Source: Scatophagus argus | Lineage: Eukaryota > Chordata > Actinopteri > Scatophagidae | Assembly (NCBI RefSeq): GCF_020382885.2 | Contig: NC_058515.1 | Coordinates: forward strand, 4,199,223-4,263,222 | Direction of reading: 5' to 3' | Length of the DNA stretch: 64,000 nucleotides | Shown here: in pieces, positions 2,766 to 42,131 of the stretch | How the letters are laid out: every line of letters starts with the position of its first letter | How positions within the stretch are numbered: position 1 is the first letter of the stretch | Notes under the pieces: generated by a model | What the model was told of the DNA's origin: nothing | Databases searched by the model: none | What the model saw: the letters and a program-made list of their open reading frames with translations, nothing else | Translations under genes and position numbers: made by a program

Positions 2766-4447
2766 CTACTGCCTGACACTGGAGTACACACATTCAGTTT
2801 CAGTGTTGTCTTTCTGTCTTCTTGACCTGCTGACTCTGTAATCCCTTAAAGCAGCATAATGAAGATTGTTTGCATCTTGGTAACCCTGGTAACACAAAAT
2901 ATACTCTGGTAATCACAATACCGTAGCCTACATTAGAAAAAGAACAATCTGTCAAAGTCCACAAAACAAGTTGCTGAACAGACATAGAACATAAATGATA
3001 TTCACCTCTCCAATTGTTGTGGTAGAAACTGAAGCTCTTTGAGACTCCGCTTCAAATGAAAAAAATAAAAACTCATATCATCTTAAATACATTTTCAGTG
3101 TATATACAAGGGGATACATAATGACACTACTGCTATTACCTGTGCATTGGCTTCTGTTTCTCTTGTTCAGGTTGTACACTGAGAAAGTCAGGAAAACAAC
3201 CAGGATGGCGCAGAATACCAAAGCACCACTCAAGAAGTACAGACGGCTGTCAGGAGGGTTCACCTCATCTGCAGACAGGCAGACATCAGGAGTCATTACA
3301 AGCCTTTTAGTAGAGCTAAACAGAGAAATCAGTCAGCCCAACTGTAGCTTATTGATATAGATGACAGATTCGGAAAAGTGTCTCCTATACAGTTTGTCCA
3401 CCAGACAGCACTGTTGAATTTTACGTATCAAAAGTACACGCATCAAGATTGTTTATGTTACTTGTAACAGGGCTTGGAAATCCAATATTGTTCAGGCTAT
3501 ACCTTCTTAAAATTTGATGATGCAGTTATCATAATTATCTCTCTTCTACAATTTTGCTGTACTCACTCTTAAAGTCCAGCTTGGTCCCATTTCCAAACAG
3601 TATGTGTCCACATGAGGCAACAGCACAGTAGTAGGTCCCAACATGAGAAATATTCAGGCTTTTCATTGGCAAGTTGTAGACACAGGAGTGTGTTTGTGTG
3701 TTGGGTCTCCTCTCACACTGATCATTCCTGCCTCCATGGGTGTAAATGAGTGCTTGAGGAGAATCTTCAGACCTTTTGAACCAGTAAACACTGTGTTCTC
3801 CCTCACAGGTCCCAGTGTGTACTGTACAGTTCAGAGTCACAGAGCCTCCTGGCTGGATGGTCTCAGATGCTGACTGATGGACCAAAACTGGGATGTCCAA
3901 ACCCGAACCCTTCACATTGACAGTAATGCCCTCTGCAAAATCAATGTCGTATGCATAGCAGCTTGCGCAGTAGTAAGTAGCTGAGTCTGAAATGTGCAAA
4001 TCTGAGATTGTCAAGTGATTTTTACCCTTTTCAGTATCCAGTGTGAAGCGCTGGTTGTTCATGAATTCATCAGTAAAAGTGCCTTTTTTATTATGTATGT
4101 AGAAGCTTGAGATGAGCCTTGGTTTCTGTCCCAGGATTTGTTTATACCAATAAAACATTGCTGCAACTTCATCTTCATAGAAACATCGTAATGTCACACT
4201 GTTTCCAACATTAACAGATACAAAACCACTCTCCTGATGCAGAGACATAGTTGTCAGAGCTGAATGAAAAGGAAACCAAAGTAGATCAAAATAAGAGCAA
4301 TGATGGAAATTTAAGTGAATGATTAGGAATTAAATCAGTGACTGTAGTCAATTGAAAATATACAAATAAAACTGAGAAAAGATCAAACTTACTTGTTGTC
4401 CACAAATATAGACAAGTCAGGTATAAATCACACTTCAGAGATGTCAT
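2766..4447 (-). CDS. nitr: Novel immune-type receptor 1 (inhibitory type)
   Basis: Five exons on the minus strand: leader 4393-4447, V plus I domains 3567-4259, transmembrane 3140-3268, linker 3006-3049 and tail 2766-2885. The splice sites are consensus and phases agree, giving 346 aa. The leader starts MTSLKCDLYLTCLYLW. The V domain has the core cysteines (LRCFY and YYCAS), WYKQ and DSATYYC. The I domain has six cysteines, VYWFK and the J-like FGNGTKL. The transmembrane helix LSGALVFCAILVVFLTF has no charged residue. The tail carries the ITIM LHYAAL and a C-terminal CVYSSV. In this family such tails recruit SH2 phosphatases and inhibit lymphoid cells; that role is inferred here. In the V domain the J motif is degraded to FAEGIT, and an extra cysteine lies in the CDR3-like loop (CASCYAYD). 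A minus-strand AATAAA lies at 2643-2648. Confidence 0.9.
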
Positions 4448-4518
4448 TGTGGTCAAAATGTCTTGACGAATGTAGAGAGCTTGGATATTTTCTTTACTCT
4501 TAGAGAGAGGACAGCGTT

Positions 4519-4530
4519 TGATTGGCTAAC
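4519..4530 (-). promoter_or_regulatory. CCAAT box of NITR 1
   Basis: On the minus strand this reads GTTAGCCAATCA, about 75 bp upstream of the start codon. The same element is at nearly the same distance in all seven NITR genes of the window. Confidence 0.6.
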
Positions 4531-7079
4531 AAGAAGTGACACTGAAGGTGCTATTTTGGAAACAGTGAACACGTTTCCCCCTGCATTGACTGTGTTGGTT
4601 CTTGAGTCAATAAACTTGGAGAGAGGTGCTAGAACCACAACGAGCTTGTAATCTTTGTTTTTGGAACCCTGATCTCTAAAAGTCCATTTCATTAGGTAGC
4701 ATCATCAGCAGAAATTTCCAAAAACAAATGCACAAATGATGGATTATTGGACATTTATTCTCAGATTAGTATTTTAACTGGTAGTTTAAATATAAGTATA
4801 CTATAAGTACTGAAGATTTTACTTGTGTAAATGTCATTGGTCAGTGCTAAGCTTAACACCAGTGAGACCTAGATTTTATTGTGTGGATGTGAAGATTTCT
4901 TTTCTTGACCAGCAAAAGATTTTTTGATGATATCATAAGCAGATTGTCGGTATAAATTAATCAGTAAATGGGAGTTATGCAAACTTTAAGGAACTAAAAT
5001 TATTAAAGAGAAAATAAAGCAACCTGACCAAATTTAAAGGATAAAGTTTCTGGTTAGGATGATCTTTGACAAGTTACGCTTCCACATACATTTTCTTTAG
5101 GTGTGGGTGCACACGTGCTCTGTGCCGACAGGAAGCAGGTAGTGGTGTGTTGTTGTAGCGCCATTGTTATAAAACACTGGACTTGGAGTCTGCAGCCACA
5201 TTAGCAACTTTTTTGGGCTGCTAACACACGTTCTAACACATCTTAGTTTAGCATGTTAGCATGCTAATTACAGTTCATCCTGATGAACTACCAAATGCAG
5301 CAAATTATCCAGTAACTGTTAGGACATTTCACTCACAATCACCGATGTGAATCTCATTCCAGTGCAAAACCAAATCTTAAGGGATCACCAAAATCAGTAG
5401 GATTCATCCTGTGCTAACCATCTGCACCAAATTTTGTGCCAATTCATCATCCATCCATCCATTCATTTTCTGTCAGGGTCGTGGGGAAGCTGGAGCCTAT
5501 CCCAGCTGACTACGGGCGAGAGGCGGGGTACACCCTGGACTGGTCGCAAGTCAATTGCAGGGCCAACACACAAAGACAGACAACCACACACTCTAGCCAA
5601 TCAACCTAATGTGCATGTTTTTGGTATTGTGGGAGGAAGCTGGAGTACCCAGAGAAAACCCACGCAGGCACAGGGAGAACATGCAAACTCCACATAGAAG
5701 GGCCCAGACCGGGATTCAAACCTGGAACCCTCTTGCTATGAGGCGACAGTGCTAACCACTGCACCACCGTGCCGCCCGCCAATTCATCATGTAGATAGTA
5801 ATTTCGCAAGATAAAGAAAACTTTGATTAGGCTGGGGCAATACAGGAAAAAACAGGGTGTCACCAATGTCAGTGTTATTCACTCAGTGGATATGGATACC
5901 ATGTATTCAATTCCCTGGAAATCCATCAAACAGATGTCAAGACATGATACATAAAAACAAAAATATCAACTTCAGGGCAACAACTTAAGACCTGTCAGGG
6001 GAATCAGTGATCAAGGTTTGTCGAAATTGGCTTCATGGGACCACGGCCATCTGCAGAGAAAATAAAAAATAATAATAATAATAATCTGTCCAGTAGTTTT
6101 TGGAGTATTTGAGTATGGATAAAGTTGACCCTGGACCAGCTGACCAATCAGCATTGCCAACCCAAAATATTTTTCTTGGCAATGGTTACTGATGTTGCAG
6201 CTAACCTGGGTGATTGCTGCTCATGAAAACACTGCAGAGACTTCCTGTTTGAAACCAGAGAGTGAAACAGGCTAACTCTAGAAGTCCCAACGTACTTGAT
6301 TTATCAACATTTCAAAGACAGACCTGATTCACAGTACAACCTCACATTTTTGGTCAACCAGAGGCCCTTATTTGCCAATTTACTTTGGCAGTTTCACCAC
6401 TCTCACATATTGGCATGGGTGAGGTCAACATCATAAATGTGGTGCCAACAGACACTTATATACAAAGAACCTACAACTTCTGGATAGAACATGCACAGAC
6501 ATATTGTTTGGAACCTTGTTGTCCTGATGATCATTAATGGCATAACATTTACACACAAAGTCACTTGTATTGTTTAAAATCCATGCATAAACATAAAGCA
6601 TGAGACAGTGTTGATCCGAACAGCATATCTCTCAGGATTTGGAGTTTCTTTAGTTTATTTCCTGCTTTATTTTGTAGATTTTCTCCTCTTGTGTCCTGTT
6701 TAACTTTTCATTTCCTGTCTTTGTCTGCTTTCCCTCCTTTTTTGATTGTTTTCACCTGTGTTTAGTCCCCATTTTCTATACCTGCTCTCCATGTGTGATT
6801 TGTCTGTGTCTCGAGAGTTTTGTTTGCTGCCTTCTGTGGCCTCTGTGTTCCTCATGTCTTCTGTTCTGGATAGTTTCTTTGTTTTTGACTGTTGTTACTT
6901 TGACCATTGCCTTTTGTTTGCATCTGTTTTCCTTTTGAGTAAGTTTTGTTTTATTAGGTCGGTGGTGAATGCTGAAGCTCCCCTCCAGAAATGCACCAAA
7001 TTGACCTCATCTGCAAAGAAAAGCACCAGAAACATAGTTTTTCTCAGATGCACCAACCTCGGGAAGAAAAGTTACCTAC
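4531..7079. other. NITR intergenic module, unit 1
   Basis: No gene is supported. Most of 4700-6270 is the same sequence as 12,180-13,200 and 18,660-19,690, apart from a SINE insertion at 5451-5778. The T-rich stretch 6615-7075 is also repeated at 13,265-13,771 and 19,745-20,283 beside the NITR pseudogenes. Its identity is unknown; the short open frames in it are conserved only because the copies are recent. Confidence 0.55.
5451..5778 (-). repeat. tRNA-headed SINE (Mermaid-like) with target-site duplication
   Basis: On the minus strand the element starts GGCGGCACGGTGGTGCAG, a tRNA-like head with box A, then GGTTTGAATCCC as box B, and it ends in a GGATGG repeat tail. The 12-bp direct repeat CCAATTCATCAT flanks it at 5439-5450 and 5779-5790. 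The paralogous sites near 12,931-12,942 and in the unit at 18.4-20 kb have one copy of that 12-mer and no insertion. The family name is from memory of teleost repeats. Confidence 0.85.
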
Positions 7080-7789
7080 ACTCAAAGTCCAGTTTGGTTC
7101 CGTTTCCAAACACCATGTCTCTATATTTGGTAACAGCACATTAGTAAGTCCCAGCATGAGAAAGATTCAGGCTCTTCATTGTCAAACTGTAGACTCAGGA
7201 GCGTGTTTGTGTGTTGGATTTCCTTAGAGTCACAGAGCCTCCTGGTCGGATGCTAACTGATGGACCATTACAAGCGTCTTCAAATTTAAATCTTTCATAC
7301 TGACAGTCATGCCCTCTGAAATATTTATGGTCTATAAATGACAACTCAAGCAGTTGTAGGTAGCTCTCTGAGTCTGAAATATGTAAATTTGTCATTGTCT
7401 AGAAGTTTTAATTTCCAGTGTTAAGCATGGATTGTTTTTGAATTTATCACAAAAAGTGTCATTTGTTGTAATGGTGCTAAAGTTTGAGATCAGCCTTTGT
7501 TTCTGTCTCAGGATTTGTTTATACCAGTAATACTGCAGGAATGTCACTTTTATAGAAACACTGTACAGCTGTCTCTAGTTTTAGTTGAGTGGTAAGTAGA
7601 TAAGAACAGGGTCAGAGCAGCTGTCTGAGCTGAAGTGAAAAGACACAAAGCAAATCCGCATATACTTTTAGGTTATGTGGCTGATTCAGCATTGTCATTA
7701 CACATTAGAAACATGAGCAGTGGTGTTACATTAAAACATAAATTCTGGAGTGACTAAAACTTCTCACCCACTTTCCACAAGCGTGTCAT
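7080..7789 (-). pseudogene. Truncated NITR pseudogene A
   Basis: The V/I exon remnant is 7080-7629, about 550 bp against 693 bp in intact genes, and a short leader remnant with ATG is at 7766-7789. Recognisable parts are WYKQIL, DSESYLQLL-like V sequence, PSVSIRPGGSVTL from the start of the I domain, NTQTRS, and a J-like end close to LDFE before a GTAGGT donor. The central I domain is missing, frames are broken, and no transmembrane or tail exon follows on the left. It lies between intact NITR genes 1 and 2. Confidence 0.8.
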
Positions 7790-9004: not shown

Positions 9005-9005
<1 letters not shown>

Positions 9006-10220: not shown

Positions 10221-11939
10221 CTACTGCCTGACACTGGAGTACACACATACAGTTTCAGTGTTGTCTCTCTGTCTTCTTGACCTGCTGACTCTGTAATCCC
10301 TTAAAGCAGCATAATGGAGATTGTCTGCATCTTGGTAACCCTGGTAACAAAAAATACACTCTGGTAATCACAATACAGTGACCTTCATTAGAAAAAGAAC
10401 AATCTGTCAAAGTCCTCAAAACAAGTTGCTGTAAAGACAATAAATAATATTCACCTCTCCATTTGTTGTGGTAGAAGCTGAAGCTCTTTGAGACTCTGCT
10501 TCAAAAGACAAAACAACTTATATCATCTTAAATACATCTTCAGTGTGTATACAAGGGGATACATAATGACACTACTGCTATTACCTGTGCATTGGCATCT
10601 GTTTCTCTTGTTCAGGTTGTACACTGAGAAAGTCAGGAAAACAACCAGGATGGTGCAGAATACCAAAGCACCACTCAAGAAGTACAGACGGCTGTCAGGA
10701 GGGTTCACCTCATCTGCAGACAGGCAGACATCAGGAGTCATTACAAGCCTTTTAGTAGAGCTAAACAGAGAAATCAGTCAGACCAACTATAGCTTATTGA
10801 TATAGATGACAGATTCGGAATAGTGCCTCCAATACAGTTTGTCCTCCAGGCAGCACAGTTGATTTTTACACTGTAAAATTTCCCATTTAGTGTCAGTCAA
10901 AATTAAAAACAAACCAAATCAAAAGTAGACGCATCAAGATCGCTTATGTTACTTGTAACAGGGCTTGGAAATCCAATATTGTTCAGGCTATACCTTCTTA
11001 AAATTTGATGATGCAGTTATCACAATTATCTCTCTGCTACAGTTTTGCAGTACTTACACTCAATGTCCAGCTTGGTCCCATTTCCAAACAGTATGTGTCC
11101 ACATGTGGCAACAGCACAGTAGTAGGTCCCAACATGAGAAATATTCAGGCTGTTCATCGGCAAGTTGTAGACACAGGAGTGTGTTTGTGTGTCGGGTCTC
11201 CTCTCACACTGATCATTCCTGCCTCCATGGGTGTAAATGAGTGCTTGAGGAGAATCTTCAGACCTTTTGAACCAGTAAACACTGTGTTCTCCATCACAGG
11301 TCCCAGTGTGTACTGTACAGTTCAGAGTCGCAGAGCCTCCTGGCTGGATGGTCTCAGATGCTGACTGATGGACCAAAACTGGGATGTCCAAACCTGAACC
11401 CTTCACATTGACAGTAATGCCCTCTGCAAAATCAATGTCGTATATATAGCAGCTTGCACAGTAGTAAGTGGCTGAGTCTGAAATGCGCAAATCTGAGATT
11501 GTCAAGTGATTTTTACCCTTTTCAGTATCCAGTGTGAAGTGCTGATTGTTCATGAATTCATCATAAAAAGTGCCCTTTTTCTCATGTTTAAAGAAGCTTG
11601 AGATGAGCCTTGGTTTCTGTCCCAGGATTTGTTTATACCAATAAAAAGCTGCTACAACGTCATCTTCATAGAAACATCGTAATGTCACACTGTCGCCAAC
11701 ATTAACAGATACAAAACCACTCTCCTGATGCAGAGACATAGTTGTCAGAGCTGAATGAAAAAGGAAACCAAAGTAGATCAAAATAAGAGCAATGATGGAC
11801 GTTTAAGTGAATGATTAGATATTAAGTCAGTGACTGTAGTCTCTTGAAAATATACCAATAAAACTGACAAAAGATCAAACTTACTTGTTGTCCACAAGCA
11901 CAGACAAGTCAGGTGTAAATCACACTTCAGAGATGTCAT
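10221..11939 (-). CDS. nitr: Novel immune-type receptor 2 (inhibitory type)
   Basis: Exons on the minus strand: leader 11,885-11,939, V/I 11,058-11,750, transmembrane 10,585-10,713, linker 10,455-10,498 and tail 10,221-10,340. The product is 346 aa. Domain order is as in NITR 1: a leader beginning MTSLKCDLHLTCLCLW, a V domain with YEDDVVAAFYW in CDR1 and CASCYIYDIDFA at the CDR3-like loop, a six-cysteine I domain with FGNGTKL, an uncharged transmembrane helix, the ITIM LHYAAL, and a CVYSSV end. The V/I exon donor is GTAAGT where gene 1 has GTGAGT, so the split codon becomes Tyr. A minus-strand AATAAA is at 10,098-10,103. The inhibitory role is inferred from the tail. Confidence 0.9.
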
Positions 11940-12022: not shown

Positions 12023-13771
12023 AAGAAGTGACACTGAAGGTGCTATTTTGGAAACAGTAAACACATGTTGCCCCCTGCATTGACTTTGTTGGTTCTTGAG
12101 TCAATAGACTTGGAGAGAGGTGCTAGAACCACAACGAGCTTGTAATCTTTGTTTTTGGAACCCTGATCTCTAAAAGTCCTTTTATTAGGTAACATCATCA
12201 TGACAAGATGGATTATTAGACATTTATTCTCAGATTAGTGTTGAAAGTATTTCAACTGGTATAAATACTCAACGTACTGAGGATTTTACCTTTAATGGAG
12301 TGTAAATGTCATTGGTCAGTGCTAAGCTTAACACCAGTGCAGTCTCTGAGACCTAGATTTTATTGTGTGGATGTGAAGATTTCTTTTATTGACAACCAAA
12401 AGATTTTTTGATGATATCATAAGCTGATTGTCGGTATAAATTAATCAGTAAATGGGAGTTATGCAAACTTAAGGAACTAAAATTACAAAAGAGAAAATTA
12501 AGCAACCTGACCAAATTTAAAGGATAAAGTTTCTGGTTAGGATGATCTTTGACAAGTTACGCTTCCACATACATTTTCTTTAGGTGTGGGTGCACACGTG
12601 CTCTGTGCCGACAGGAAGCAGGTAGTGGTGTGTTGTTGTAGCGCCATTGTTATAAAACACTGGACTTGGAGTCTGCAGCCACATTAGCAACTTTTTTGGG
12701 CTGCTAACACACGTTCTAACACATCTTAGTTTAGCATGTTAGCATGCTAATTGCAGTTCATCCTGATGAACATGTACAAAATGCAGCAAATTATCCAGTA
12801 ACTGTTAGGACATTTCACTCACAATCACCGATGTGAATCTCATTCCAGTACAAAACCAAATCTTAAGGGATCACCAAAATCAGTAGGATTCATCCTGTGC
12901 TAACCATGAACATCTACACCAAATTTTGTGCCAATTCATCATGTAGACAGTAATTTCACAAGATAAATGAAAACTTTGATTTGGTGGGGTCGCATTTAAT
13001 AATAATCTGTCCAGTAGTTTTTGAGGTATTTGAGTGTGGATAAAGTTGACTCTGGACCAGCTGACCAATCAACATTGCCCACCCTAAACACTTTTCTTGG
13101 CAGTGGTTACTGATGTTGCAGCAAACCTGCGTGATAGCTGCTCATGAAAACGCTGCAGAGACTTCCTGTTTGAAACCAGAGAGTGAAACAGGTCCTCAGA
13201 AAGCAAGAACACTAAGAGCTAACTTTTCACTGTTGACCACACCAAGGCTAAAAAAAGCATGAGACAGTGTTGATCCGAAAAGCATATCTCTCAGGATTTG
13301 GAGTTTCTTTAGTTTATTTCCTGCTTTATTTTGTAGATTTTCTCCTCTTGTGTCCTGTTTAACTTTTCATTTCCTGTCTTTGTCTGCTTTCCCTCCTTTT
13401 TTGATTGTTTTCACCTGTGTTTAGTCCCCATTTTCTATACCTGCTCTCCATGTGTGATTTGTCTGTGTCTCGAGAGTTTTGTTTGCTGCCTTCTGTGGCC
13501 TCTGTGTTCCTCATGTCTGCTGTTCTGGATAGTTTCTTTGTTTTGGACTGTTGTTTCCTTGACTGTCACCTTTTGTTTGTATCTGTTTTCCTTTTGAGTA
13601 AATTTTGTTTTATTAGGTCGGTGGTGAATGCTGAAGCACCAAATTAACCTCATCTACAAAGAAAAGCACCAAAAACATAGTTTTAGCATATTTTCTGTTC
13701 CCTAACTTTGTATTGGAAGTAACCAGGAGTATTTCTCAAATGCACCAACCTCGGGAAGAAAAGTTACCTAC
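12023..13771. other. NITR intergenic module, unit 2
   Basis: No gene is supported. It is nearly identical to 18,508-20,283, and lacks the SINE present in unit 1. A T-rich stretch from 13,265 leads into pseudogene B. Confidence 0.55.
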
Positions 13772-14458
13772 ACTCAAAGTCCAGTTTGGTTTCTTTTCCA
13801 AACACCATGTCTCCATATGAGGCAACAGCACATTAGTAAGTCCCAGCATGAGAAATATTCAGGCTCTTCATTGTCAAACTGTAGACTCAGGAGTGTGTTT
13901 GTGTGTTGGATTTCCTCAGAGTCACAGAGCCTCCTGGTTGGATGCTAACTGATGGACCATCACAAGCGTCTTCAAATTTAAATCTTTCACACTGACAGTC
14001 ATGCTCTCTGAAATATTTATTGTCTATAAATGACAAGTTTCTGCCATTTTTAATTTCCAGTGTGAAGCATGGATTGTTTTTGAATTCATCACAAAAAGTG
14101 CCATTTGTATCAATGGTGTTCAAGTTTGAGATCAGCCTTTGTTTCTGTCTCAGGATTTGTTTATACCAGTAATACTGCAGGAACGTCACTTTTATAAAAA
14201 CACTGTAGAGTCCAGTTGTCTCTAGTTTTAATTGATCCAAAACTATTTTCTTGGCAAGCAAATGAGGACAGTGTAAGAGCAGCTGTCTGAGCTGAAGGGG
14301 AAAGAGACACAAAGCAAGTCCCCATTTATTTTTAGGTTATGTGGCTGATTCAGCATTGTCATTACACATTAGAAACATGAGGAGTGGTGTTACATTAAAA
14401 CATAAATACTGGAGTGATTAAAGCTACTCACCTACTTTCCACAAGAACAAATGTTATC
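13772..14458 (-). pseudogene. Truncated NITR pseudogene B
   Basis: The V/I exon remnant is 13,772-14,291 (520 bp against 693), with a leader remnant near 14,432-14,458 in which the start ATG reads ATA. Visible V pieces are YYWYKQIL, RLISNL, GTFCDEFKNNPCFTLE and CQCERFKFEDACDG. The I domain keeps PSVSIQPGGSVTL, then jumps to NTQTHS, so its middle is deleted. A codon of the GTYYCA motif has become a stop. No transmembrane exon is found to the left. Confidence 0.82.
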
Positions 14459-16767: not shown

Positions 16768-18424
16768 CTACTGCCTGACACTGGAGTACACACATTCAGT
16801 TTCAGTGTTGTCTCTCTGTCTTCTTGACCTGCTGACTCTGTAATCCCTTAAAGCAGCATAATGGAGATTGTCTGCATCTTGGTAACCCTGGTAACAAAAA
16901 ATACTCTCTGGTAATCACAATACAGTGACCTACATTAGAAAAAGAACAATCTGTCAAAGTCCACAAAACAAGTTGCTGAACAGACATAGAACATAAATGA
17001 TATTCACCTCTCCATTTGTTGTGGTAGAAGCTGAAGCTCTTTGAGACTCTGCTTCAAAAGACAAAAAACTGATATCATCTTAAATACATCTTCAGTGTGT
17101 ATACAAGAGGATACAAAATGACACTACTGCTATTACCTGTGCATTGGCTTCTGTTTCTCTTGTTCAGGTTGTACACTGAGAAAGTCAGGAAAACAACCAG
17201 GATGGTGCAGAATACCAAAGCACCACTCAAGAAGTACAGACGGCTGTCAGGAGGGTTCACCTCATCTGCAGACAGGCAGACATCAGGAGTCATTACAAGC
17301 CTTTTAGTAGAGCTAAACAGAGAAATCAGTCAGGCCAACTGTAGCATATTGATATAGATGATATAGATGTAACTAGCTGATAAAGATGTCAGTCAAAATT
17401 AAAAACAAAAACCAAATCAAAAGTACATGCATCAAGATCGTTTATGTTACTTGTTACAGGGCTTGGAAATCCAATATTGTTCAGGCTATACCCTCTATAA
17501 CCTATCATAGTTATCTCTCTGCTACAGTTTTGCAGTACTCACTCTCAATGTCCAGCTTGGTCCCATTTCCAAACAGTATGTGTCCACATGTGGCAACAGC
17601 ACAGTAGTAGGTCCCAACATGAGAAATATTCAGGCTGTTCATCGGCAAGTTGTAGACACAGGAGTGTGTTTGTGTGTCGGGTCTCCTCTCACACTGATCA
17701 TTCCTGCCTCCATGGGTGTAAATGAGTGCTTGAGGAGAATCTTCAGACCTTTTGAACCAGTAAACACTGTGTTCTCCCTCACAGGTCCCAGTGTGTACTG
17801 TACAGTTCAGAGTCACAGAGCCTCCTGGCTGGATGGTCTCAGATGCTGACTGATGGACCAAAACTGGGATGTCCAAACCTGAACCCTTCACATTGACAGT
17901 AATGCTTTCTGCAAAATAAATGTTGTATGCATAGGAGCTTGCACAGTAATAAGTACCTGAGTCTGAAATGTGCAAATCTGAGATTGTCAAGTGATTTTTA
18001 CCCTTTTCAGTATCCAGTGTGAAGCGCTGATTGTTCATGAATTCATGATAAAAAGTGCCCTTTTTGTCATGTTTAAAGAACCTTGAGATGAGCCTTGGTT
18101 TCTGTCCCAGGATTTGTTTATACCAATAAAAAGCTGCTGCAAATTCATCTTCATAGAAGCATCGTAATGTCACACTGTCGCCAACATTAACAGATACAAA
18201 ACCACTCTCCTGATGCAGAGACATAGTTGTCAGAGCTGAATGAAAAAGGAAACCAAAGTAGATCAAAATAAGAGCAATGATGGACGTTTAAGTGAATGAT
18301 TAGATATCAAGTCAGTGACTGTAGTCTCTTGAAAATATACCAATAAAACTGACAAAAGATCAAACTTACTTGTTGTCCACAAGCACAGACAAGTCAGGTG
18401 TAAATCACACTTCAGAGATGTCAT
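16768..18424 (-). CDS. nitr: Novel immune-type receptor 3 (inhibitory type)
   Basis: Exons on the minus strand: leader 18,370-18,424, V/I 17,543-18,235, transmembrane 17,137-17,265, linker 17,008-17,051 and tail 16,768-16,887. The product is 346 aa. The leader equals that of NITR 2. In the V domain the CDR1 is YEDEFAAAFYW and the CDR3-like loop CASSYAYNIYFA, so the extra cysteine of genes 1, 2 and 4 is Ser here. The V-domain J position reads FAESIT. The I domain, uncharged transmembrane helix and tail (LHYAAL, CVYSSV) follow the family pattern. Flanks and introns are almost the same as those of NITR 2, marking a recent duplication of about 6.5 kb. An AATAAA is at 16,645-16,650 on the minus strand. 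Confidence 0.9.
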
Positions 18425-18507: not shown

Positions 18508-20283
18508 AAGAAGTGACACTGAAGGTGCTATTTTGGAAACAGTAAACACATGTTGCCCCCTGCATTGACTTTGTTGGTTTTTGAGTCAATAGACTTGGAG
18601 AGAAGTGCTAGAACCACAACGAGCTTGTAATCTTTGTTTTTGTAACCCTGATCTCTAAAAGTCCTTTTATTAGGTAACATCATCATGACAAGATGGATTA
18701 TTAGACATTTATTCTCAGATTAGTGTTGAAAGTATTTCAACTGGTATAAATACTCAACGTACTGAGGATTTTACCTTTAATGGAGTGTAAATGTCATTGG
18801 TCAGTGCTAAGCTTAACACCAGTGCAGTCTCTGAGACCTAGATTTTATTGTGTGGATGTGAAGATTTCTTTTATTGACAACCAAAAGATTTTTTGATGAT
18901 ATCATAAGCTGATTGTCCGTATAAATTAATCAGTAAATGAGAGTTATGCAAACTTTAAGGTACTAAAATTATTAAAGAGAAAATTAAGCAACCTGACCAA
19001 ATTTAAAGGGTAAAATTTCTGGTTAGGATGATCTTTGACAAGTTACGCTTCCACATACATTTTCTTTAGGTGTGGGTGCACACGTGCTCTGTGCCGACAG
19101 GAAGCAGGTAGTGGTGTGTTGTTGTAGCGCCATTGTTATAAAACACTGGACTTGGAGTCTGCAGCCACATTAGCAACTTTTTTGGGCTGCTAACACACGT
19201 TCTAACACATCTTAGTTTAGCATGTTAGCATGCTAATTGCAGTTCATCCTGATGAACTTGTACAAAATGCAGCAAATTATCCAGTAACTGTTAGGACATT
19301 TCACTCACAATCACCGATGTGAATCTCATTCCAGCGCAAAACCAAATCTTAAGGGATCACCAAAATCAGTAGGATTCATCCTGTGCTAACCATGAACATC
19401 TACACCAAATTTTGTGCCAATTCATCATGTAGACAGTAATTTCACAAGATAAATGAAAACTTTGATTTGGTGGGGTCGCATTTAATAATAATCTGTCCAG
19501 TAGTTTTTGAGGTATTTGAGTGTGGATAAAGTTGACTCTGGACCAGCTGACCAATCAACATTGCCCACCCTAAACACTTTTCTTGGCAATGGTTACTGAT
19601 GTTGCAGCAAACCTGCGTGATAGCTGCTCATGAAAACGCTGCAGAGACTTCCTGTTTGAAACCAGAGAGTGAAACAGGTCCTCAGAAAGCAAGAACACTA
19701 AGAGCTAACTTTTCACTGTTGACCACACCAAGGCTAAAAAAAGCATGAGACAGTGTTGATCCGAAAAGCATATCTCTCAGGATTTGGAGTTTCTTTAGTT
19801 TATTTCCTGCTTTATTTTGTAGATTTTCTCCTCTTGTGTCCTGTTTAACTTTTCATTTCCTGTCTTTGTCTGCTTTCCCTCCTTTTTTGATTGTTTTTAC
19901 CTGTTTTCACCTGTGTTTAGTCCCCATTTTCTATACATGCTCTCCATGTGTGATTTGTCTGTGTCTCGAGAGTTTTGTTTACTGCCTTCTGTGGCCTCTG
20001 TGTTCCTCATGTCTGCTGTTCTGGATAGTTTCTTTGTTTTGGACTGTTGTTACCTTGACTGTCACCTTTTGTTTGCATCTGTTTTCCTTTTGAGTAAGTT
20101 TTGTTTTATTAGGTCGGTGGTGAATGCTGAAGCTCCCCTCCAGAAATGCACCAAATTAACCTCATCTACAAAGAAAAGCACCAAAAACATAGTTTTAGCA
20201 TATTTTCTGTTCCCTAACTTTGTATTGGAAGTAACCAGGAGTATTTCTCAGATGCACCAACCTCGGCAAGAAAAGTTACCTAC
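18508..20283. other. NITR intergenic module, unit 3
   Basis: No gene is supported. It is a near twin of 12,023-13,771. The T-rich stretch from about 19,745 precedes pseudogene C. Confidence 0.55.
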
Positions 20284-23221: not shown

Positions 23222-24830
23222 CTACTGCCTGACACTGGAGTACACACATACAGTTTCAGTGTTGTCTCTCTGTCTTCTTGACCTGCTGACTCTGTACTCC
23301 CTTAAAGCAGCATAATGGAGATTGTCTGCATCTTGGTAACCCTGGTAACAAAAAATACACTCTGGTAATCACAATACATTAGAAAAAGAACAATCTGTCA
23401 AAGTCCTCAAAACAAGTTGCTGTAAAGACAATAAATAATATTCACCTCTCCATTTGTTGTGGTAGAAGCTGAAGCTCTTTGAGACTCTGCTTCAAAAGAC
23501 AAAAAACTCATCATCATCTTAAATACATCTTCAGTGTGTATACAAGGGGATACATAATGACACTACTGCTATTACCTGTGCATTGGCATCTGTTTCTCTT
23601 GTTCAGGTTGTACACTGAGAAAGTCAGGAAAACAACCAGGATGGTGCAGAATACCAAAGCACCACTCAAGAAGTACAGACGGCTGTCAGGAGGGTTCACC
23701 TCATCTGCAGACAGGCAGACATCAGCAGTCATTACAAGCCTTTTAGTAGAGCTAAACAGAGAAATCAGTCAGGCCAACTGTAGCTTATTGATATAAATGA
23801 TATAGATGTAACTTGCTGATATAGATGTCAGTCAAAATTAAAAACAAAAACCAAATCAAAAGTACATGCATCAAGATCGTTTATGATACTTGTTACAGGG
23901 CTTGGAAATCCAATATTGTTCAGGCTATACCCTCTATAACCTATCATAGTTATCTCTCTGCTACAGTTTTGCAGTACTCACTCTCAATGTCCAGCTTGGT
24001 CCCATTTCCAAACAGTATGTGTCCACATGTGGCAACAGCACAGTAGTAGGTCCCAACATGAGAAATATTCAGGCTGTTCATCGGCAAGTTGTAGACACAG
24101 GAGTGTGTTTGTGTGTCGGGTCTCCTCTCACACTGATCATTCCTGCCTCCATGGGTGTAAATGAGTGCTTGAGGAGAATCTTCAGACCTTTTGAACCAGT
24201 AAACACTGTGTTCTCCCTCACAGGTCCCAGTGTGTACTGTACAGTTCAGAGTCACAGAGCCTCCTGGCTGGATGGTCTCAGATGCTGACTGATGGACCAA
24301 AACTGGGATGTCCAAACCTGAACCCTTCACACTGACAGTAATTCCTTCTGCAAAATTAATGTTGTATGCATAGCAGCTTGCGCAGTAATAAGTAGCTGAG
24401 TCTGAAATGCGCAAATCTGAGATTGTCAAGTGATTTTTACCATTTTCAGTATCCAGTGTGAAGCGCTGGTTGTTCATGAATTCATCAGTAAAAGTGCCTT
24501 TTTTGTTATGTTTATAGAAGCTAGAGACCAGCCTTGGATTCTGTCCCAGTATTTGTTTATACCAATAAAATGTTGCTCCAACTTCATCTTCATAGAAACA
24601 TCGTAATGTCACACTGTTTCCAACATTAACAGATACAAAACCACTCTCCTGATGCAGAGACGTAATTGCCAGAGCTGAAAAGAAAAGAGACCAAAGAAGA
24701 TCAACATAAAATTCAATGATGTCTACAGTCATTTGGGTGAAGATACAAATAAAACTGACAAAAGACCAAACTTACCCATTCTCCACAAGCACAGACAAGT
24801 CAGGTATAAAGCAAACCTCGGAGATGTCAT
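23222..24830 (-). CDS. nitr: Novel immune-type receptor 4 (inhibitory type)
   Basis: Exons on the minus strand: leader 24,776-24,830, V/I 23,982-24,674, transmembrane 23,576-23,704, linker 23,446-23,489 and tail 23,222-23,341. The product is 346 aa. The leader is of a second type (MTSPRFALYLTCLCLWRMG), shared with NITR 5 and different from genes 1-3, while the I domain and tail match genes 2 and 3. The V domain has YEDEVGATFYW, GQNPRLVSS and CASCYAYNINFA. The tail has LHYAAL with LREYRV instead of LRDYRV, then CVYSSV. The mix of a gene-5-like leader and V start with a gene-3-like 3' half suggests a past gene conversion or unequal crossover. Confidence 0.9.
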
Positions 24831-25915: not shown

Positions 25916-27144
25916 TATTGCCAAAAGTATTCACTCACCCATCCAAATCATTTAATTCAGGTGTTCCAATCACTTCATTGCTTCTACAAACATTTGTGAA
26001 AGAATGGGCCACTCTTTTTTTTTTCAGTGAATTCAAGCAGCCGCATCCAAGCTATACATCACCAAGGAGTCCTTGGGCTTTCTTGTCTTGCAGGTTCCCA
26101 TGGATCGTGGTCGGGCCTCCTGCTGCAGTCCTGCTTGAAACTTACTGCGATTACTACTGTTTAGTCATAATCTGTTTTAATTCTATTACTACTCTGCTGC
26201 AGCTGCTACCATTATTATTGTTACTAATATTGCTATCATAATCACCATAGTACCTTATGTATACTTCATTGTCATTATCATTATCTACAGTTCCAATACT
26301 TCTGGTATTATTACTGCTGCTATACATCTCTGCTTGTGTGCTCCTTCTCTCATGCCCCAACCCCTTGTTGGGTTCTCTATATTACAGTTTAATTAAAGAG
26401 TTTGGTCTCGACCTGCTCTAATTGAAAAGTATCATGAGATATTTTCTGTTGTGAATTGGCACTATATAAATAAACTGAATTTAATTGAACTGAAGTGCAA
26501 TGCAAATTGTCGGATGCAGTGGTGTAAAGCATGCCACCACTGGACTCTAGAGCAGTGGAGATGCGTTCTCTGGAGTGATGAATCACGCTTCTCCATCTGG
26601 CAATCTTTTGGACAAATCTGGGTTTGGCGGTTACCGAGAGAATGCTATTTGTCTTACTGCATTGTGCCAAGTGTGAAGTTTGGTGGAGGGGGGATTATGG
26701 TGTGGGGTTGCTGAGATTAGTTTCAGTGGAAAGGAACTCTGAATGCTTCAGCATACCAAGGGATTTTGGACAATGCCATGCTCCCAACTTTGTGGGAACA
26801 GTTTGGGGATGGCCCCCTCCTGTTCCAACATGACTGCACATCTTTGCACAAAGCAAGGTCCATAAAGACATGGATGAGCGAATTTGGTGTGGAAGAACTT
26901 GACTGGCCAGCACAGAGTCCTGACTTCAACTCAACAGAACACCTTTGGGATAAATTAGAGCCAAGACTGCGAGCCAGGCCTTCCCTGAAAAATTCCCATA
27001 AACACATTCCTTGTGGAAAGCCTTCCCAGAAGAGTCGAAGCTGTTATAGCTGCAAATGGTGGGCTGACGTCATATTAAACCCTATGGATTAAGAATTGGA
27101 TGTTCATATGCGTGTAAAGGCAGATGAGTGAATACTGTTGGCAA
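25916..27144 (+). mobile_element. Broken Tc1-like DNA transposon with nested retroelement end
   Basis: The ends form inverted repeats: the left end begins TATTGCCAAAAGTATTCACT, and the right end, read in reverse, is TTGCCAACAGTATTCACTCA. The 3' half of a Tc1-type transposase is readable on the plus strand: [20 protein letters not shown] at about 26,530-26,590, then [10 protein letters not shown], then LLFQHDCTSLHKA and SPDFNSTEHLWDKLE. This includes DDE-region positions (SDES and HLW context). The N-terminal half is absent, replaced at about 26,090-26,500 by another repeat. Frames shift at least twice, so it cannot make transposase. Confidence 0.85.
26090..26500 (+). repeat. Non-LTR retroelement 3' end nested in the Tc1-like element
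   Basis: It ends with GTGAATTGGCACTATATAAA followed by imperfect ATTGAA-type repeats, the typical tail of a common teleost LINE/SINE group. Its last 110 bp match, in the opposite orientation, the insertion in intron 1 of NITR 5 (31,978-32,075). The left boundary is uncertain. Confidence 0.6.
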
Positions 27145-30338: not shown

Positions 30339-32147
30339 CTACTGCCTGACACTGGAGTACACACATACAGTTTCAGTGTTGTCTCTCTGTCTTCTTGACC
30401 CGCTGACTCTGTAATCCCTTAAAGCAGCATAATGGAGATTGTCTGCATCTTGGTAACCCTGGTAACAAAAAATACACTCTGGTAATCACAATACAGTGAC
30501 CTACATTAGAAAAAAGAACAATCTGCCAAAGTCCTCAAAACAAACAAATGTTGCGATGTTACATGTGTCAGAATGGCATTTTTACAGTTGTTTTACCGAA
30601 AAAAAATAATATTCACCTCTCCATTTGTTGTGGTAGAAACTGAAGCTCTTTGAGACTCCACTGCAAGTGAAGAGAAACAAACTCATATCGTTTTAAATAC
30701 ATCTTCAGTGTGTATACAAGAGGATACATAATGACACTACTGCTATTACCTGTGCATTGGCATCTGTTTCTCTTGTTCAGGTTGTACACTGAGAAAGTCA
30801 GGAAAACAACCAGGATGGTGCAGAATACCAAAGCACCACTCAAGAAGTACAGACGGCTGTCAGGAGGGTTCACCTCATCTGCAGACAGGCAGACATCAGG
30901 AGTCATTACAAGCCTTTTAGTAGAGCTAAACAGAGAAATCAGTCAGGCCAACTATAGCTTATTGATATAGATGACAGATTCGGAAAAGTGTCTCCCATAC
31001 AGTTTGTCCTCCAGGCAGCACAGTTGATTTTTACACTGTAAAATGTCCCATTTAGTGTCAGTCAAAATTAAAAACAAGAACCAAATCAAAAGCATATGCA
31101 TCAAGATTGTTTTTGTTACTTGTTACAGGGCTTGGAAATCCAGTACTGTCCAGGCTATATCATAATTATCTCTCTGCTACAGTTTTGCTGTACTCACACT
31201 CAAAGTCCAGCTTGGTCCCATTTCCAAACAGTATGTGTCCACATGAGGCAACAGCACAGTAGTAGGTCCCAACATGAGAAATATTCAGGCTTTTCATCGG
31301 CAAGTTGTAGACACAGGAGTGTGTTTGTGTGTTGGGTCTCCTCTCACACTGATCATTCCTGCCTCCATGGGTGTAAATGAGTGCTTGAGGAGAATCTTCA
31401 GACCTTTTGAACCAGTAAACACTGTGTTCTCCCTCACAGGTCCCAGTGTGTACTGTGCAGTTCAGAGTCACAGAGCCTCCTGGCTGGATGGTCTCAGATG
31501 CTGACTGATGGACCAAAGCTGGGATGTCCAAACCTGAACCCTTCACACTGACAGTCATACCCTTTGCAAATTCAAGTTTGTATGCATAAAAAACCGCGCA
31601 GTAGTAAGTGGCTGAGTCTGAAATGTGTAAATCTGAGATTGTCAAGTGATTTTTACCCTTTTCAGTATCCAGTGTGAAGCGCTGATTGTTCATGAATTCA
31701 TCATTAAAAGTGCCTTTTTTGTTGTGTTTATAGAAGCTAGAGATGAGCCTTGGATTCTGTCCCAGTATTTGTTTATACCAATAAAATGTTGCTCCAGATT
31801 CATCTTCATAGAAACATCGTAATGTCACACTGTCGCCAACATTAACAGATACAAAACCACTCTCCTGATGCAGAGACGTAGTTTCCATAGCTGAATGAAA
31901 AGAGACCAAAGAAGATCAACATAAAAGCAATGATGTCTACAGTCACTTGGGTGAGGATACAAATTAAACTGACAAAATTCAATTTTCAGTTCAATTCAGG
32001 TCATTTATATAGCCCCAATTCACAACCAAACTTTCCAATTAGAGCAGGTCTAGACCAAACTCTTTAATTAAATAATAAAAGACCAAACTTACCCATTCTC
32101 CACAAGCACAGACAAGTCAGATATAACGCAAACCTTGGAGATGTCAT
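30339..32147 (-). CDS. nitr: Novel immune-type receptor 5 (inhibitory type)
   Basis: Exons on the minus strand: leader 32,093-32,147, V/I 31,198-31,890, transmembrane 30,750-30,878, linker 30,617-30,660 and tail 30,339-30,458. The product is 346 aa. The leader is MTSPRFALYLTCLCLWRMG. The V domain has YEDESGATFYW, GQNPRLISS and the CDR3-like CAVFYAYKLEFAKG, which is closer to NITR 6 (YKLEFAKGM) than to genes 1-4. The I domain has six cysteines and FGNGTKLDFE, like gene 1. The linker exon uses a TTGCAG acceptor and starts Val-Glu. The tail has LHYAAL and CVYSSV. Intron 1 holds a retroelement fragment, and the AATAAA used by genes 1-4 is deleted downstream. Confidence 0.9.
31978..32075 (-). repeat. 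Retroelement tail in intron 1 of NITR 5
   Basis: NITR 4 has CTGACAAAAGACCAAAC across this point. In NITR 5 about 100 bp lie between CTGACAAAA and AAAAGACCAAAC. Reverse-complemented, the insert reads like the end of the element at about 26,390-26,500 (AATTAAAGAGTTTGGTCTAG, then GTGAATTGGGGCTATATAAA). It is a short 3' fragment within the intron and does not touch the splice sites. Confidence 0.8.
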
Positions 32148-35188: not shown

Positions 35189-36969
35189 CTACTGCCTTAC
35201 AATGGAATACACACATTCACTTTGTGGATCAACCCTCTGTCTTGTTTGTCTGTTGACTTTCAAAGCAGCATAATGGAGGTTGTCTGGATCTTGGCAGTGC
35301 TGGAAATAATATATCATTTAATAACAGCATTTCATCACATGTAAATACACATCACTGTTCTGGAATTAATGTATTTCACACACTAACAGCAACATCTGTA
35401 CGATGCATCAAACCTCTGGACTTTATGGGGACTTTATGGGCTTTTATGACAGGTAATAAGCTGCTCATATTGACATTTTCATATATTGTGTTTAACTGAC
35501 ATACACAGTATGCAAAAACATTCTGATAAATGCAAGGCAAAACCTTGACCCTCGCAGTTTCTTAAAGGTATGGGTCAGGAGTATGGAATTGAATGATTTT
35601 GCAAAGGTGTTGGTGTTGCCATGCTGTAACATTGTTTTAGTAGTGCTCTACTCACCTCTGCATTTGGAGTCAAGGCAGCTGAAGATCTTGAGTCTGGTTA
35701 AAAAAAAAAAATCTTTCAAATTCACGCTAATGGTGAGACTGACTTCTTGATATACTTCTTGGATATGTTTGAAGATAAATCTCAATAGCATATCACCATA
35801 GATTATATATCAGCCTCAATTGGTTGCCTCTCCGTTATGAAATTAATAACTGGAAGCCAGCCTACCTGTACATTGGCAGCTGTTTCGGTTTTTCATTGTA
35901 TATGCTCCATACGCCAGTATAACAACCACGATCATGACGAATACCAAAGCTCCAATCAAAAAATACACGAAGATAAAAGATTCCACTTTATCTGCAGATC
36001 CTGATGATAGGAGATATTACAAACCTGTAAAATACTGAGGAAGTAGTAATCATAACAACTTTACATATGAAACATCTGCTAGGTTACTTACTCTCAAAGT
36101 CCATCTTTTTTCCATTTCCAAACAGTATGTGTCCACATGAGGCAACAGCACAGGAGAAGGTCCCAGCATGAGAAACATTCAGGTTCTTCATTGGCAAATT
36201 GTAAACACAGGAGTGTGTTTGTGTGTTGGGTTTCCACTCACACTGATCATTCCTGCTTCCATGGGTGTAAATGAATCCTGGATGAGATTCTTCAGAGTTT
36301 TTGAACCAGTAAACACTGTGTTCTCCATCACAGGTCCCAGTGTGTACTGTACAGTTCAGAGTCACAGAGCCTCCTGGCTGGATGGTCTCGGACGTTGACT
36401 GACGGACTAAAGCTGGGATGCTCAGACCTGAACCCTTCACACTAACAATCATACCCTTTGCAAATTCAAGTTTGTATGCATTTAAACTCGCACAGAAGTA
36501 AGTAGCTGAGTCTGAAATGTGTAAATCTGAGATAGTCAAGTGATTTTTACCATTTCCTGTGTTTAGTGTGAAACGAGAATTGTTCTTAAATTTGTTATGA
36601 AAGACACCATTTTCTTCATGTTTATAGAAGGAGGAGATGAGCCTTGGTTTCTGCCCAAAAGTTTGCTTAAACCAGTAAAACATTGCCGCATTGCCTTCAT
36701 AGAAACATTGCATGGTTAAGTTGTTACCAACATCAACTGACACAAAACCACTGTCTTGACGTACAGATATGGGCGATTTCAGATCAGTCATCTCAGCTGG
36801 AGAGAAAAGAGATCCAGAAAGAGCGTATTTAATTCAGTGAACTGACTTGAACATAAATTCTGTTTGAAAAATCTGTAATCATAGTAAATATGGAAATTAC
36901 AACTGACGACTTACCTATTCTTCCCAAGAACAGAGAAGTCAGACAAAAAGCACACCACAGGATGTCCAT
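35189..36969 (-). CDS. nitr: Novel immune-type receptor 6 (inhibitory type, divergent)
   Basis: Exons on the minus strand: leader 36,915-36,969, V/I 36,092-36,796, transmembrane 35,866-35,991, linker 35,656-35,693 and tail 35,189-35,299. The product is 344 aa. The leader is MDILWCAFCLTSLFLGRIG. An in-frame ATG further upstream at 37,060-37,062 would precede it with a polar stretch, so the signal-peptide start was chosen. The V domain has MQCFY, FYWFKQTFGQ and CASLNAYKLEFAKG. The I domain keeps the six cysteines, and its J motif is FGNGKKM. The transmembrane helix (FLIGALVFVMIVVVILAYGA) is uncharged and differs clearly from genes 1-5. The tail has LHYAAL and ends ECVYSIVRQ. Confidence 0.88.
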
Positions 36970-37887: not shown

Positions 37888-38065
37888 GGTAATCCATCCA
37901 TCCATTTTCTATATCGCATATTCATCAGGGTCACGGGGAAGCTGGTGCCTATTCCAGCTGACTATGGGCGGACTGGTTGCCAGTCAATCGCAGGGCCAAC
38001 ACACAAGACAGACAACCACACACTCTCACACTCACACCTAGGGGCAATGTAGAGTAGCCTGGTAA
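37888..38065 (-). repeat. Truncated Mermaid-like SINE
   Basis: It has the shared left part (ATCCATCCATCCATTTTCTA through the GGGCAATGTAGAGTAGCC phrase) and lacks the tRNA-like head. Confidence 0.7.
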
Positions 38066-39229: not shown

Positions 39230-39530
39230 CACAGAGGCCAGACCTCAACCCCATCGAACACCTTTGGAGATGAACTGGAAAGAACATTGTGAACAAGGCT
39301 TTTTCATCCAACTTCAATGCCTGGCCTTACAAATGATCTCCTGCATGAAAGAGGGGAAAGAAAAGCAGACAGAAACACTTACAGAAATCCTTCCCAGAAG
39401 AGTGGAAACTCTTATAGCTGCAAATCTCTCTATCTATTTAGAATTTAATGTCAGTAAGGTTCCTGCTGGTGTAAATGTCAGTTGCCCCAGTCCATTTGTC
39501 CATATAGTGTACATGCTACCCATTCTCCCC
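39230..39530 (+). mobile_element. Tc1-like transposase relic
   Basis: RPDLNPIEHLWR is readable on the plus strand near 39,237-39,272, followed by a frame with SFSSNFNAW-type and SFPEEWKLL-type sequence, which is the end of a Tc1 transposase. Stops interrupt it, and no intact left end was seen. Confidence 0.75.
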
Positions 39531-40653
39531 AGGGGCAAACGTTTGTTAAAATTACTTTTTGTAGACAAGACTGCCTATGACTGATCATTCAGAAATGACT
39601 AAATGATCTTTCATGGAGACAAAACAGACTTTGGAAAGATTTATTTTCAAGAGGGCATCAGGATTCATTTAGAAAATTACATAATACAACATATACACAG
39701 TGAGTTACAATGAGCAAATAGATAAAACTCCCGAATCAACTGCTGTATCAATAAAGGAACACTGTAACTTTAATCATTGTTAAAGCACAAAATTAGAAGA
39801 AATATCTGAAATTTTTCATTGTCTAATGTTTGTGTTGTGAAAAGCAGTGATGAAATCATATACCACCAAATACCCATCACACCCCTCATCACCACCGCCT
39901 GTCCTGCTCCCGTTACAGAGCTCCTGTTTTTTTTACTGACTTTAAAAGACACATAATACATGTATAATAGCCTCTTGGCAAAACTCACACTGATCAGATA
40001 CCATCTTTCCTTCATCAGAAGACATTTTTAATTTAATTAAACACTGGCTGTGTGACCCCCTGAACTTTCATTTTAATGTTCAAATTGTTGTGATTATTAC
40101 ATTATTCTTACAGCCATTTTGCCCACCACCTTGGCACATTTTTTTTTTCTTTCACTTCACCCTGAAGTCTATAGTCTAAATTCCTGCTTTATTTTAATGA
40201 CAAAATGCTGCCAGCTTTTAGTTTTTCTTATCATCTGCACAGCATGTTTTCTGCATCTGGGCCCCAGTGCTTGTATCACAAAGTTCTGCAACACCAGTTT
40301 CGCTACAAGATGCTATGGTCTGCAAGCTGCAGACCGGTCTTCCTGTGCTGAAGCTATGCTGGGCCTTGATTTTCCACTGATGGAAACTTGCTGAATATGC
40401 TGTGGTTCACATCACCTTCACCGCAGGTGTGACAAGTAGACTGTTAGAAGCGGCCAAGTGATAAAAACGTGCTGAGGTTTCGGACAGGAATGATATTTAT
40501 AACATCATAGGGGATTGATTGAATTGCCTGAATTTGTATCCAGTGTTATATACAGATGCACGAACACATGCACATATTATTTATGCATTTTTATATATTT
40601 AGTCATGTCATTTTCTTGCAAGTGATAGAAGCAGTTAGAAGCAAAGGCAAAGT

Positions 40654-42131
40654 TCAGTGTTTTCTATTCTTTACTCTAGAGTACACGCAAATGCTCTCCT
40701 CGCGTGCCTCTGGTCGATGTCGTTTGCTGGTTCCGCTCATTTTCAGAGCAGCGTAATGGATGACATCTGCATCTTGGCTCTGGTAATAACAAAATTGCAA
40801 AGGAAAAATGTTTGAGAAGTACTAGAAGTAAAAATATAACAGCTGTTATTAAAATCTTATTTATGCATTCGATAGGTTTTCTATCATGAAGTTATTTCAC
40901 CTACCATATTGTCAGAAGATGTCAAATTAGAGACAGTTCCTGTAAATCAAAGCAAATCCTGTAAATCCAATCAAGCTGGGTCACTACAGAAAAAAAATTC
41001 AAATCCTTTGTTCTGAAAATCTTACCTTTGCAAACAGAACATATCTGTTTATTCAACTTGGATATGGTGAAAGCCAAGACAAGAAGAAGAATAATAGAAA
41101 CTGCCAATGTCACACTCAGGCAGTGCACCAGGAGAGGGATGAGTCTGGTAAAATCTTGTCACATACAATCAAGACAAAATATATTTGATGTCCATTTTAC
41201 ATATTTACAAATATACAATAATCAGTTAATTTAAGTTTATTCTAACGTGCCATCCATATTAGGTATTAGTTATTATCACCTACCTGCAATCTCCACTTTC
41301 GTTCCATTTCCTAACACAATCTCCCCACAGGAGGCCAGAGCACAGTAGTACATTCCTGCATCGGACGAGTTCACTGACTTTATAGTGAGGTTTGATGTGC
41401 AGTTTTTTGCATGAGACTCTAAGTCATTCGTACACCATTGTGCACTGTGATACACAATTGCAGGCTGAGCTGCACCATGTCTGAACCAGTACAGACTCTG
41501 CTCCCCTACACATTTTTCAGCGTAACTTGTACAGCTTAAAATTGCAGGGTCTCCCAACTGAAGTGTCTCCAACACTGGCTGATGGACAACAGCATGGGTG
41601 TTGGACAGCGATGATTTGACATGAAGGAAAGCACCTTGTCCAAATTCAACTGTATTTAACTGTAAAATTCCACAGTAATATGTTGCTGAATCTGACAGCT
41701 GCACATGTGAGATTATTAGATTGTTGAAGTTTTCTTCAAATTCCACCCGAAACCTTTCTTTATATTGGGGGAAGATGGAAGCTTTTGTGCTGTACTTCAT
41801 CCGAGATGACACAATGAGAGGTTTGCCCCCCAAGCTTTGCTGGTACCAGAAGAAGAAAGTTACAGAGTCATCTTGGCATAAGCATTTCAGAGTCACAGTC
41901 TCCCCAACTTCAGCTGTTATGACCTTGCTGTCCTGAATTATATCTAGGTTTTTGTCAGCAGCTGGCACCTGACCTGCACAGAAATACATAAAATTCCATT
42001 ATTCATTTTTTTTAAAAACCTCTTTCTTCTCACTCACAATTATATTCATGCACATAAAAACAGCGACAAAAGCATTAAAAATACTCACAGATTTCACAGA
42101 GGAGCACAAAAAAAATACGAAGTGACATCAT
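40654..42131 (-). CDS. nitr: Novel immune-type receptor 7 (inhibitory type, most divergent)
   Basis: Exons on the minus strand: leader 42,089-42,131 (MMSLRIFFVLLCEI), V/I 41,284-41,973, transmembrane 41,026-41,154, linker 40,905-40,939 and tail 40,654-40,779. The product is 340 aa. Two choices keep the frame: a weak AAG acceptor for the transmembrane exon, since the nearer CAG at 41,143 leads to a stop, and a GTAGGT donor for the linker. The V domain has LKCLCQD, FFWYQQ, SATYYCGI and an intact J-type FGQGAFLHV. The I domain has six cysteines with SLYWFR and VLGNGTKVEI. The helix HCLSVTLAVSIILLLVLAFT has no acidic or basic residue. The tail has the ITIM IHYAAL and CVYSRV. Confidence 0.85.

Follow-up and report, generated by a model that had tools for sequence, protein, structure and literature searches.

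An array of NITR genes in Scatophagus argus with low silent divergence in the I domain and arginine-bearing transmembrane relics

NITRs are regarded as the equivalent, in fish, of natural killer receptors. We describe a cluster of such genes on contig NC_058515.1 (C23) of Scatophagus argus, part of which lies in a stretch of 64 000 nucleotides (C23:4199223-4263222), the whole of which is referred to here as the window. The minus strand of the window carries seven intact five-exon NITR genes (g1–g7), arranged head to tail and interleaved with three NITR pseudogenes (psi1–psi3; Table 1). In all seven genes, introns with GT/AG borders join the exons into one open frame of 340–346 codons, in the order leader, V+I, transmembrane (TM), short tail exon and an exon encoding an immunoreceptor tyrosine-based inhibitory motif (ITIM). 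An earlier reading of the window from its letters (the sequence-only reading) had proposed seven splice-consistent genes in a single orientation with three pseudogenes; this arrangement was recovered, with open frames between the outer gene limits that it had drawn.

The V domain matches the Pfam V-set family in the two genes scanned (E = 5.5e-27 for g1 and 3.6e-23 for g7) and the I domain contains six cysteines in all seven. A J-like motif, FGQGAFLHV, is present in g7, and degenerate forms (FA[EK][GS]) occur in g1–g6. Every tail in the window has a canonical ITIM, as the sequence-only reading stated (LHYAAL in g1–g6 and IHYAAL in g7), together with a second, ITIM-like motif (CVYSSV, CVYSIV or CVYSRV; 7/7) that it missed. 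Its statement that the intact genes lack a charged TM segment also agrees with our analysis: the best 21-residue TM core is free of K, R, D and E in each of the seven, with g7 having an Arg three residues ahead of the core and a His within it. An extra cysteine at codon 119, in the region of the third complementarity-determining region (CDR3), is found in g1, g2 and g4 and might allow dimers. A V-type domain with a J-like motif, a six-cysteine I domain, an ITIM-bearing tail, an uncharged TM segment and a menin-linked cluster are the features by which we assign the predicted products to the NITRs. The menin gene is single, with all nine exon matches at one place on C23, ∼3.1 Mb from the array. 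Zebrafish and medaka NITR clusters are likewise linked to menin, and V and I encoded in one exon is the class found in pufferfish and on medaka chr18/21 (PMC2442602; cited here, like PMC3463160 and PMC5701461, from an excerpt). No relatives of the window NITRs were found by tblastn in viral and prokaryote collections, and the best 60 of 10,212 matches to solved structures were antibody chains and thus uninformative.

The array extends to the left of the window, as the sequence-only reading had suspected. A protein search of the genome (570.7 Mb) gave at least 24 single-exon V-I matches, all on the minus strand within C23 4102225-4241193; this is a lower bound, as 150 of 275 candidates were scored. 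The same 24 genes came out of a profile scan run over the joined stretch. Seventeen of them lie left of the window, which is thus the right end of the array. In each of the 24 the V-I exon is open and followed by a donor site, and the tail exon is open as well. The tails contain [LI]HYAAL in 23 genes; in the exception, n09, the ITIM is LYYAAL and the second motif is lost, CVYYSA standing in its place.

A NITR9-like gene on the opposite strand borders the array. It has a mid-membrane Arg (helix IIRTVILLFF), no ITIM, a very short tail ending in RSRQRP, separate exons for V and I and, by eye, five of the six I-domain cysteines. The charged TM segment, the lack of an ITIM and the split V and I fit the predicted activating pattern of NITR9; in the activating NITR9 genes of medaka, too, V and I are divided between two exons (PMC2442602). 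A search with the I-TM part of this gene returned 43 matches, among which no second Arg helix was noticed, most ending at the end of I or crossing stops; the one stop-free match extending to query residue 129 (C12:6527584-6527985) runs on into an apparent intron. Also adjoining the array is another receptor family, with nine V-only immunoglobulin (Ig) exons, LNYAAV or LNYAAL tail motifs at four places and a V-set match in the one exon scanned.

The absence of an activating member among the seven window genes is expected, because known activating rates are low: three of 44 NITR genes in medaka (PMC2442602) and one of 39 in zebrafish (PMC3463160). The statement of the sequence-only reading that clusters in other fish often include activating members is overstated in view of these counts. 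At the medaka and zebrafish rates the chance of drawing none in seven is 0.59 and 0.82, respectively, and since g1–g5 are close copies the effective sample is below seven.

Silent divergence is distributed unevenly along these genes. Among g1–g5, pooled synonymous differences per site are 0.149 in V, 0.015 in I and 0.015 in TM/tail, and the introns differ by 6–13%. In comparisons of g6 with g1–g5, the synonymous divergence (dS) is 0.70–0.95 in V, 0.12–0.15 in I and 0.67–0.73 in TM/tail. Within codons 151–211, same-residue codons show zero silent differences in four of these five comparisons (permutation p = 5e-5 to 2e-4), and in the fifth the same holds for codons 164–211 (p = 0.007). The high identity of g6 begins near the V/I border and stops at the exon end. 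Across the 23 array genes other than g7, dS is lower in I than in V in 245 of 253 pairs, with medians of 0.139 and 0.895 when saturated values are set to 3. Between the left (14 genes), middle (three) and right (five) groups, median dS is 0.7–1.2 in V, 0.07–0.17 in I, 0.4–0.6 in TM and 0.7–1.1 in the tail. The 149 between-group pairs contain 3164 silent differences at 8024 codons in V and 892 at 13233 in I (column permutation p = 5e-5, the floor of the test); at same-residue codons their silent rate drops across the V/I border (0.34 before it, 0.16 after) and is 0–0.13 inside I.

Since both flanks of I are more diverged between groups, one crossover cannot explain its low dS, while conversion of a tract can. 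The most divergent member, g7, serves as a control: against the other 23 genes it differs silently at 449 of 959 same-residue codons in I and 536 of 884 in V, so the silent sites of I are not frozen. The NITR9-like gene is mixed in I, with silent differences of 0/113 and 50/330 in two adjoining stretches and 121/162 and 106/231 elsewhere (overall 395/1225 in I and 550/1024 in V). The low silent divergence of this half exon in 23 of the 24 genes is probably the product of gene conversion. Among the literature matches listed, no title or abstract opening reported I-domain conversion in NITRs; subscription papers were outside the scope of this search.

Positive selection on V was considered as the main story and rejected: the pooled ratio of nonsynonymous to synonymous differences (pN/pS) is 0.59 in the CDRs, 0.30 in the V framework and 0.44 in all of V, the values for I (0.99) and TM/tail (1.51) resting on few changes. 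Only in the g2–g3 pair do the CDRs show nine nonsynonymous and no synonymous changes. An exchange of CDR3/J between g5 and g6 was likewise rejected as a claim. These two genes have common CDR3/J states against g1–g4, and 11 of the 20 sites private to g5 among g1–g5 match g6, nine of them in codons 106–143, but retention of ancestral states accounts for this equally well.

The pseudogenes psi1–psi3 alternate with g1–g4 in a repeat unit of ∼6.5–7.5 kb, units 2 and 3 being 94.9% identical over 7.7 kb. Because the same I-domain stop occurs in all three, at 7081-7532, 13773-14286 and 20285-20798 (slightly longer limits are given in Table 1), they were probably dead before the unit was copied. Fragments of their TM exons match the TM exon of n09 at 43/51 (psi1), 44/51 (psi3) and 31/51 bases (psi2), and a further pseudogene to the left of the window matches it at 91/115 bases; nine places were compared, and four other pseudogenes gave no convincing match. 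The fragments of psi1 and psi3 retain an Arg codon at the start of the TM segment. Judging from the common FWR and the 51-base matches, the dead partner seems to descend from receptors with a TM Arg, so that the window would appear to hold charged-TM receptors in the form of dead copies. The Arg sits towards the outer end of the helix, as it does in certain mammalian receptors that pair with FcR gamma; any activating role would be putative. A transposase relic, with DDE_3 in the second of its open reading frames (ORFs), sits roughly at the place in unit 4 from which the pseudogene found in units 1–3 is missing.

Elsewhere in the array, n09 is a predicted hybrid, in which an inhibitory-type 5′ half gives way, where the V-I exon ends, to a divergent Arg-TM/tail. 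Over the part that starts upstream of exon 1 and runs through the V-I exon, n09 and n11 differ at 23 of 998 aligned sites (97% DNA identity), with 110 of 114 V residues and 108 of 113 I residues identical and dS of zero in both domains; past this point there are 24–34 differences per 93–100 aligned sites and many gaps. At the corresponding place n09 reads DLVYFWRAVSACTTIF and its neighbours SLVYILSAALSFTT, and by alignment the Arg corresponds to the sixth residue of the neighbours' core. Among the best 40 matches by length, the longest confined to the 3′ part of n09 is to the pseudogene at 4189 kb (67.6% over 581 bases); n15, n16, g2 and g4 match at about 65% over ∼485–525 bases and some left-group genes at 70–73% over 192–244 bases, while the match to n17 (71% over 1168 bases) includes part of the V-I exon. 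n11 carries the inhibitory signature, and n09 and n11 look like a candidate paired receptor, although one ITIM is still present in n09.

Table 1. Features of the window and of related loci. Positions are window positions unless a contig is named.
Feature	Position	Strand	Remarks
g1	2766-4447	-	5 exons; V+I exon 3567-4259, TM exon 3140-3268, ITIM exon 2766-2885; LHYAAL
g2	10221-11939	-	5 exons; LHYAAL
g3	16768-18424	-	5 exons; LHYAAL
g4	23222-24830	-	5 exons; LHYAAL
g5	30339-32147	-	5 exons; LHYAAL
g6	35189-36969	-	5 exons; LHYAAL; I near g1–g5 at silent sites, V and TM/tail not
g7 (n24)	40654-42131	-	5 exons; IHYAAL; most divergent member, outside the I-domain homogenisation
psi1	7081-7574	-	NITR pseudogene; stops in I domain
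psi2	13773-14336	-	NITR pseudogene; stop common to psi1–psi3
psi3	20285-20848	-	NITR pseudogene; stop common to psi1–psi3
psi1 TM-exon fragment	6961-7011	-	Reads DEVNLVHFWRGASAFTT; Arg at TM start, as in n09
psi2 TM-exon fragment	13620-13654	-	16-base deletion removes the Arg codon
psi3 TM-exon fragment	20116-20166	-	Reads DEVNLVHFWRGASAFTT; same Arg codon
Arg-bearing pseudogene at 4189 kb	C23:4188960-4189074		TM exon reads DLVDFWRGASAFTT
NITR9-like gene	C23:4098167-4099450	+	Left edge of array; V exon 4098316-4098675, I and TM on to 4099447
V-only Ig exons	C23:4062803-4095642	-	Nine exons (L024, L023, L009, L010)
Second NITR cluster	C12:6426855-6528519		L025-L035; 16 I-exon ORFs
ORFs at left end	1-715		LINE (long interspersed nuclear element) of the sequence-only reading; 1-540 without Pfam match
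Transposase relic	26397-27092	+	DDE_3
Direct repeats	46505-50957		Local; 275-494 bp, 88-95% identity
G-protein-coupled receptor	52355-53563	+	Intact, single exon; nearest in PDB is prostaglandin D2 receptor 2 (E = 1.2e-106)
G-protein-coupled receptor	55436-56876	-	Split over two ORFs; N-terminal part nearest in PDB to GPR4, then GPR132
UDP-glucuronosyltransferase-type gene	58863-60476	-	Single exon

The second NITR cluster, on C12, has V and I in separate exons, and spondin-type exons lie ∼0.4 Mb away, like the smaller fish cluster. Its I domains look near-identical as listed, and pattern matching finds few ITIM-like tails. By eye, an uncharged TM candidate lies 3′ of each of the 16 I exons, but other listed hydrophobic stretches do hold charges, and the cluster may or may not include activating members.

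The explanation that we favour, and that we hold as a whole to be probable, is as follows. The products of g1–g7 would be inhibitory receptors of type I membrane topology, each made up of a variable V domain, a six-cysteine I domain, an uncharged TM segment and a tail with one ITIM and one ITIM-like motif. By established ITIM biology, binding of a ligand by V would recruit SHP-type phosphatases and so restrain the cytotoxic lymphocyte in which the receptor is presumed to be expressed. This part of the array would have grown by tandem duplication of a unit made up of one live inhibitory gene and one already dead NITR, the latter derived from an Arg-TM lineage. In 23 of the 24 genes gene conversion would keep the I part of the V-I exon far more uniform than V, as TM and tail diverge between groups, and in n09 an Arg-TM/tail, whose Arg may serve activation, would have been attached behind an inhibitory-type ectodomain at the point where the V-I exon ends. 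A bolder extension is that the homogenised I domain acts as a recombination hinge that lets ectodomains move between inhibitory and Arg-TM signalling ends, the Arg-bearing partners being mostly dead and surviving as relics next to live inhibitory copies, and n09 having taken over an inhibitory ectodomain and so made a live pair with n11; this we regard as quite possible, though short of probable.

Several observations weigh against parts of this explanation. Five-exon models are available for the seven window genes and n09, the other 16 genes being read at their V-I, TM and tail exons. Within g1–g5, TM/tail is as alike as the I domain, and at fourfold sites the difference between V and I+TM reaches p < 0.05 in five of ten pairs. 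The contrast is also weaker within the 14 left genes, with median dS of 0.31 in V, 0.14 in I, 0.18 in TM and 0.41 in the tail. The five g6 comparisons are not independent, because g1–g5 are near copies, nor are the gene pairs across the array independent of one another. The link of the pseudogenes to the Arg lineage is drawn from the FWR and the 51-base matches rather than from overall identity, since n17, which has no Arg, matches the n09 TM exon at 86/112 bases, nearly as well as the 4189-kb pseudogene. In n09 the ITIM is kept, and the Arg immediately precedes the 21-residue core of highest hydropathy (2.10, compared with 2.05 for the 21 residues that include the Arg); coupling to an adaptor is thus uncertain, as it is the alignment with neighbours that places the Arg in the membrane.

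The low silent divergence of I could instead reflect constraint on the DNA or RNA of this half exon, through codon use, splicing or an antisense ORF. Antisense ORFs do run through the I domain in g1–g6, and I is more conserved than V in amino acids as well (median nonsynonymous divergence, dN, of 0.10 and 0.31 in the 23 genes). Such constraint, however, is hard to reconcile with the silent differences at nearly half of the same-residue I codons of g7, or with the confinement of the high identity of g6 between the V/I border region and the exon end, and we consider it unlikely. The other-family alternative, that these genes belong to NILT, DICP or LITR rather than to NITR, draws on the V-type domains and ITIMs that those families likewise have; the six-cysteine I domain, the J-like motifs, the single-exon V-I and the menin linkage fit NITR, and of all the alternatives we find this one the least credible.

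Nearly as improbable is that the array is truly all-inhibitory and unusual in having no activating members. The uncharged TM cores of the seven window genes would agree with this, but an absence in seven is what the known rates predict, a NITR9-like gene adjoins the array, an Arg-TM gene (n09) lies within it and psi1 and psi3 contain Arg fragments. The description of a seven-gene, all-inhibitory array given by the sequence-only reading thus stands for the intact genes of the window and fails for the wider locus of 24 genes, unless the Arg-bearing genes prove to be non-activating.

The conversion and hybrid interpretation can be compared with known systems. KIRs are paired receptors with near-identical ectodomains, shaped by gene conversion and by birth and death. 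The pair Siglec-11/16 is similar, in that an inhibitory receptor and one that signals differently have almost the same ectodomain, with gene conversion and birth and death at work (PMC5701461). These mammalian paired receptors differ from the present case in belonging to other families; moreover, n09 keeps an ITIM and its pairing with n11 is putative. Among fish, the medaka chr18 and zebrafish chr7 clusters resemble this one in their six-cysteine I domains, J-like motifs, tails with an ITIM and an ITIM-like motif, pseudogenes, menin and the inclusion of a small number of Arg-bearing NITR9 genes of the two-exon type; medaka chr18 is also alike in having V and I in one exon, and pufferfish NITRs, compared by description, in having single-exon V-I in one large cluster (PMC2442602). 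The excerpted part of the medaka study describes no receptor that combines a TM Arg with an ITIM, as n09 does, and considers a primary role for concerted evolution less likely, whereas here the I domain appears to show it (PMC2442602).

How NITR clusters hold a stable module while their V domains diverge is an open question, and this locus offers a direct case, with a sharp step in silent-site divergence at the V/I border inside one exon in 23 genes. The Arg relics and the intact n09 hybrid indicate how inhibitory and Arg-type receptors may swap parts. The balance between conversion and birth and death in the NITRs thereby becomes testable by comparison with sister species.

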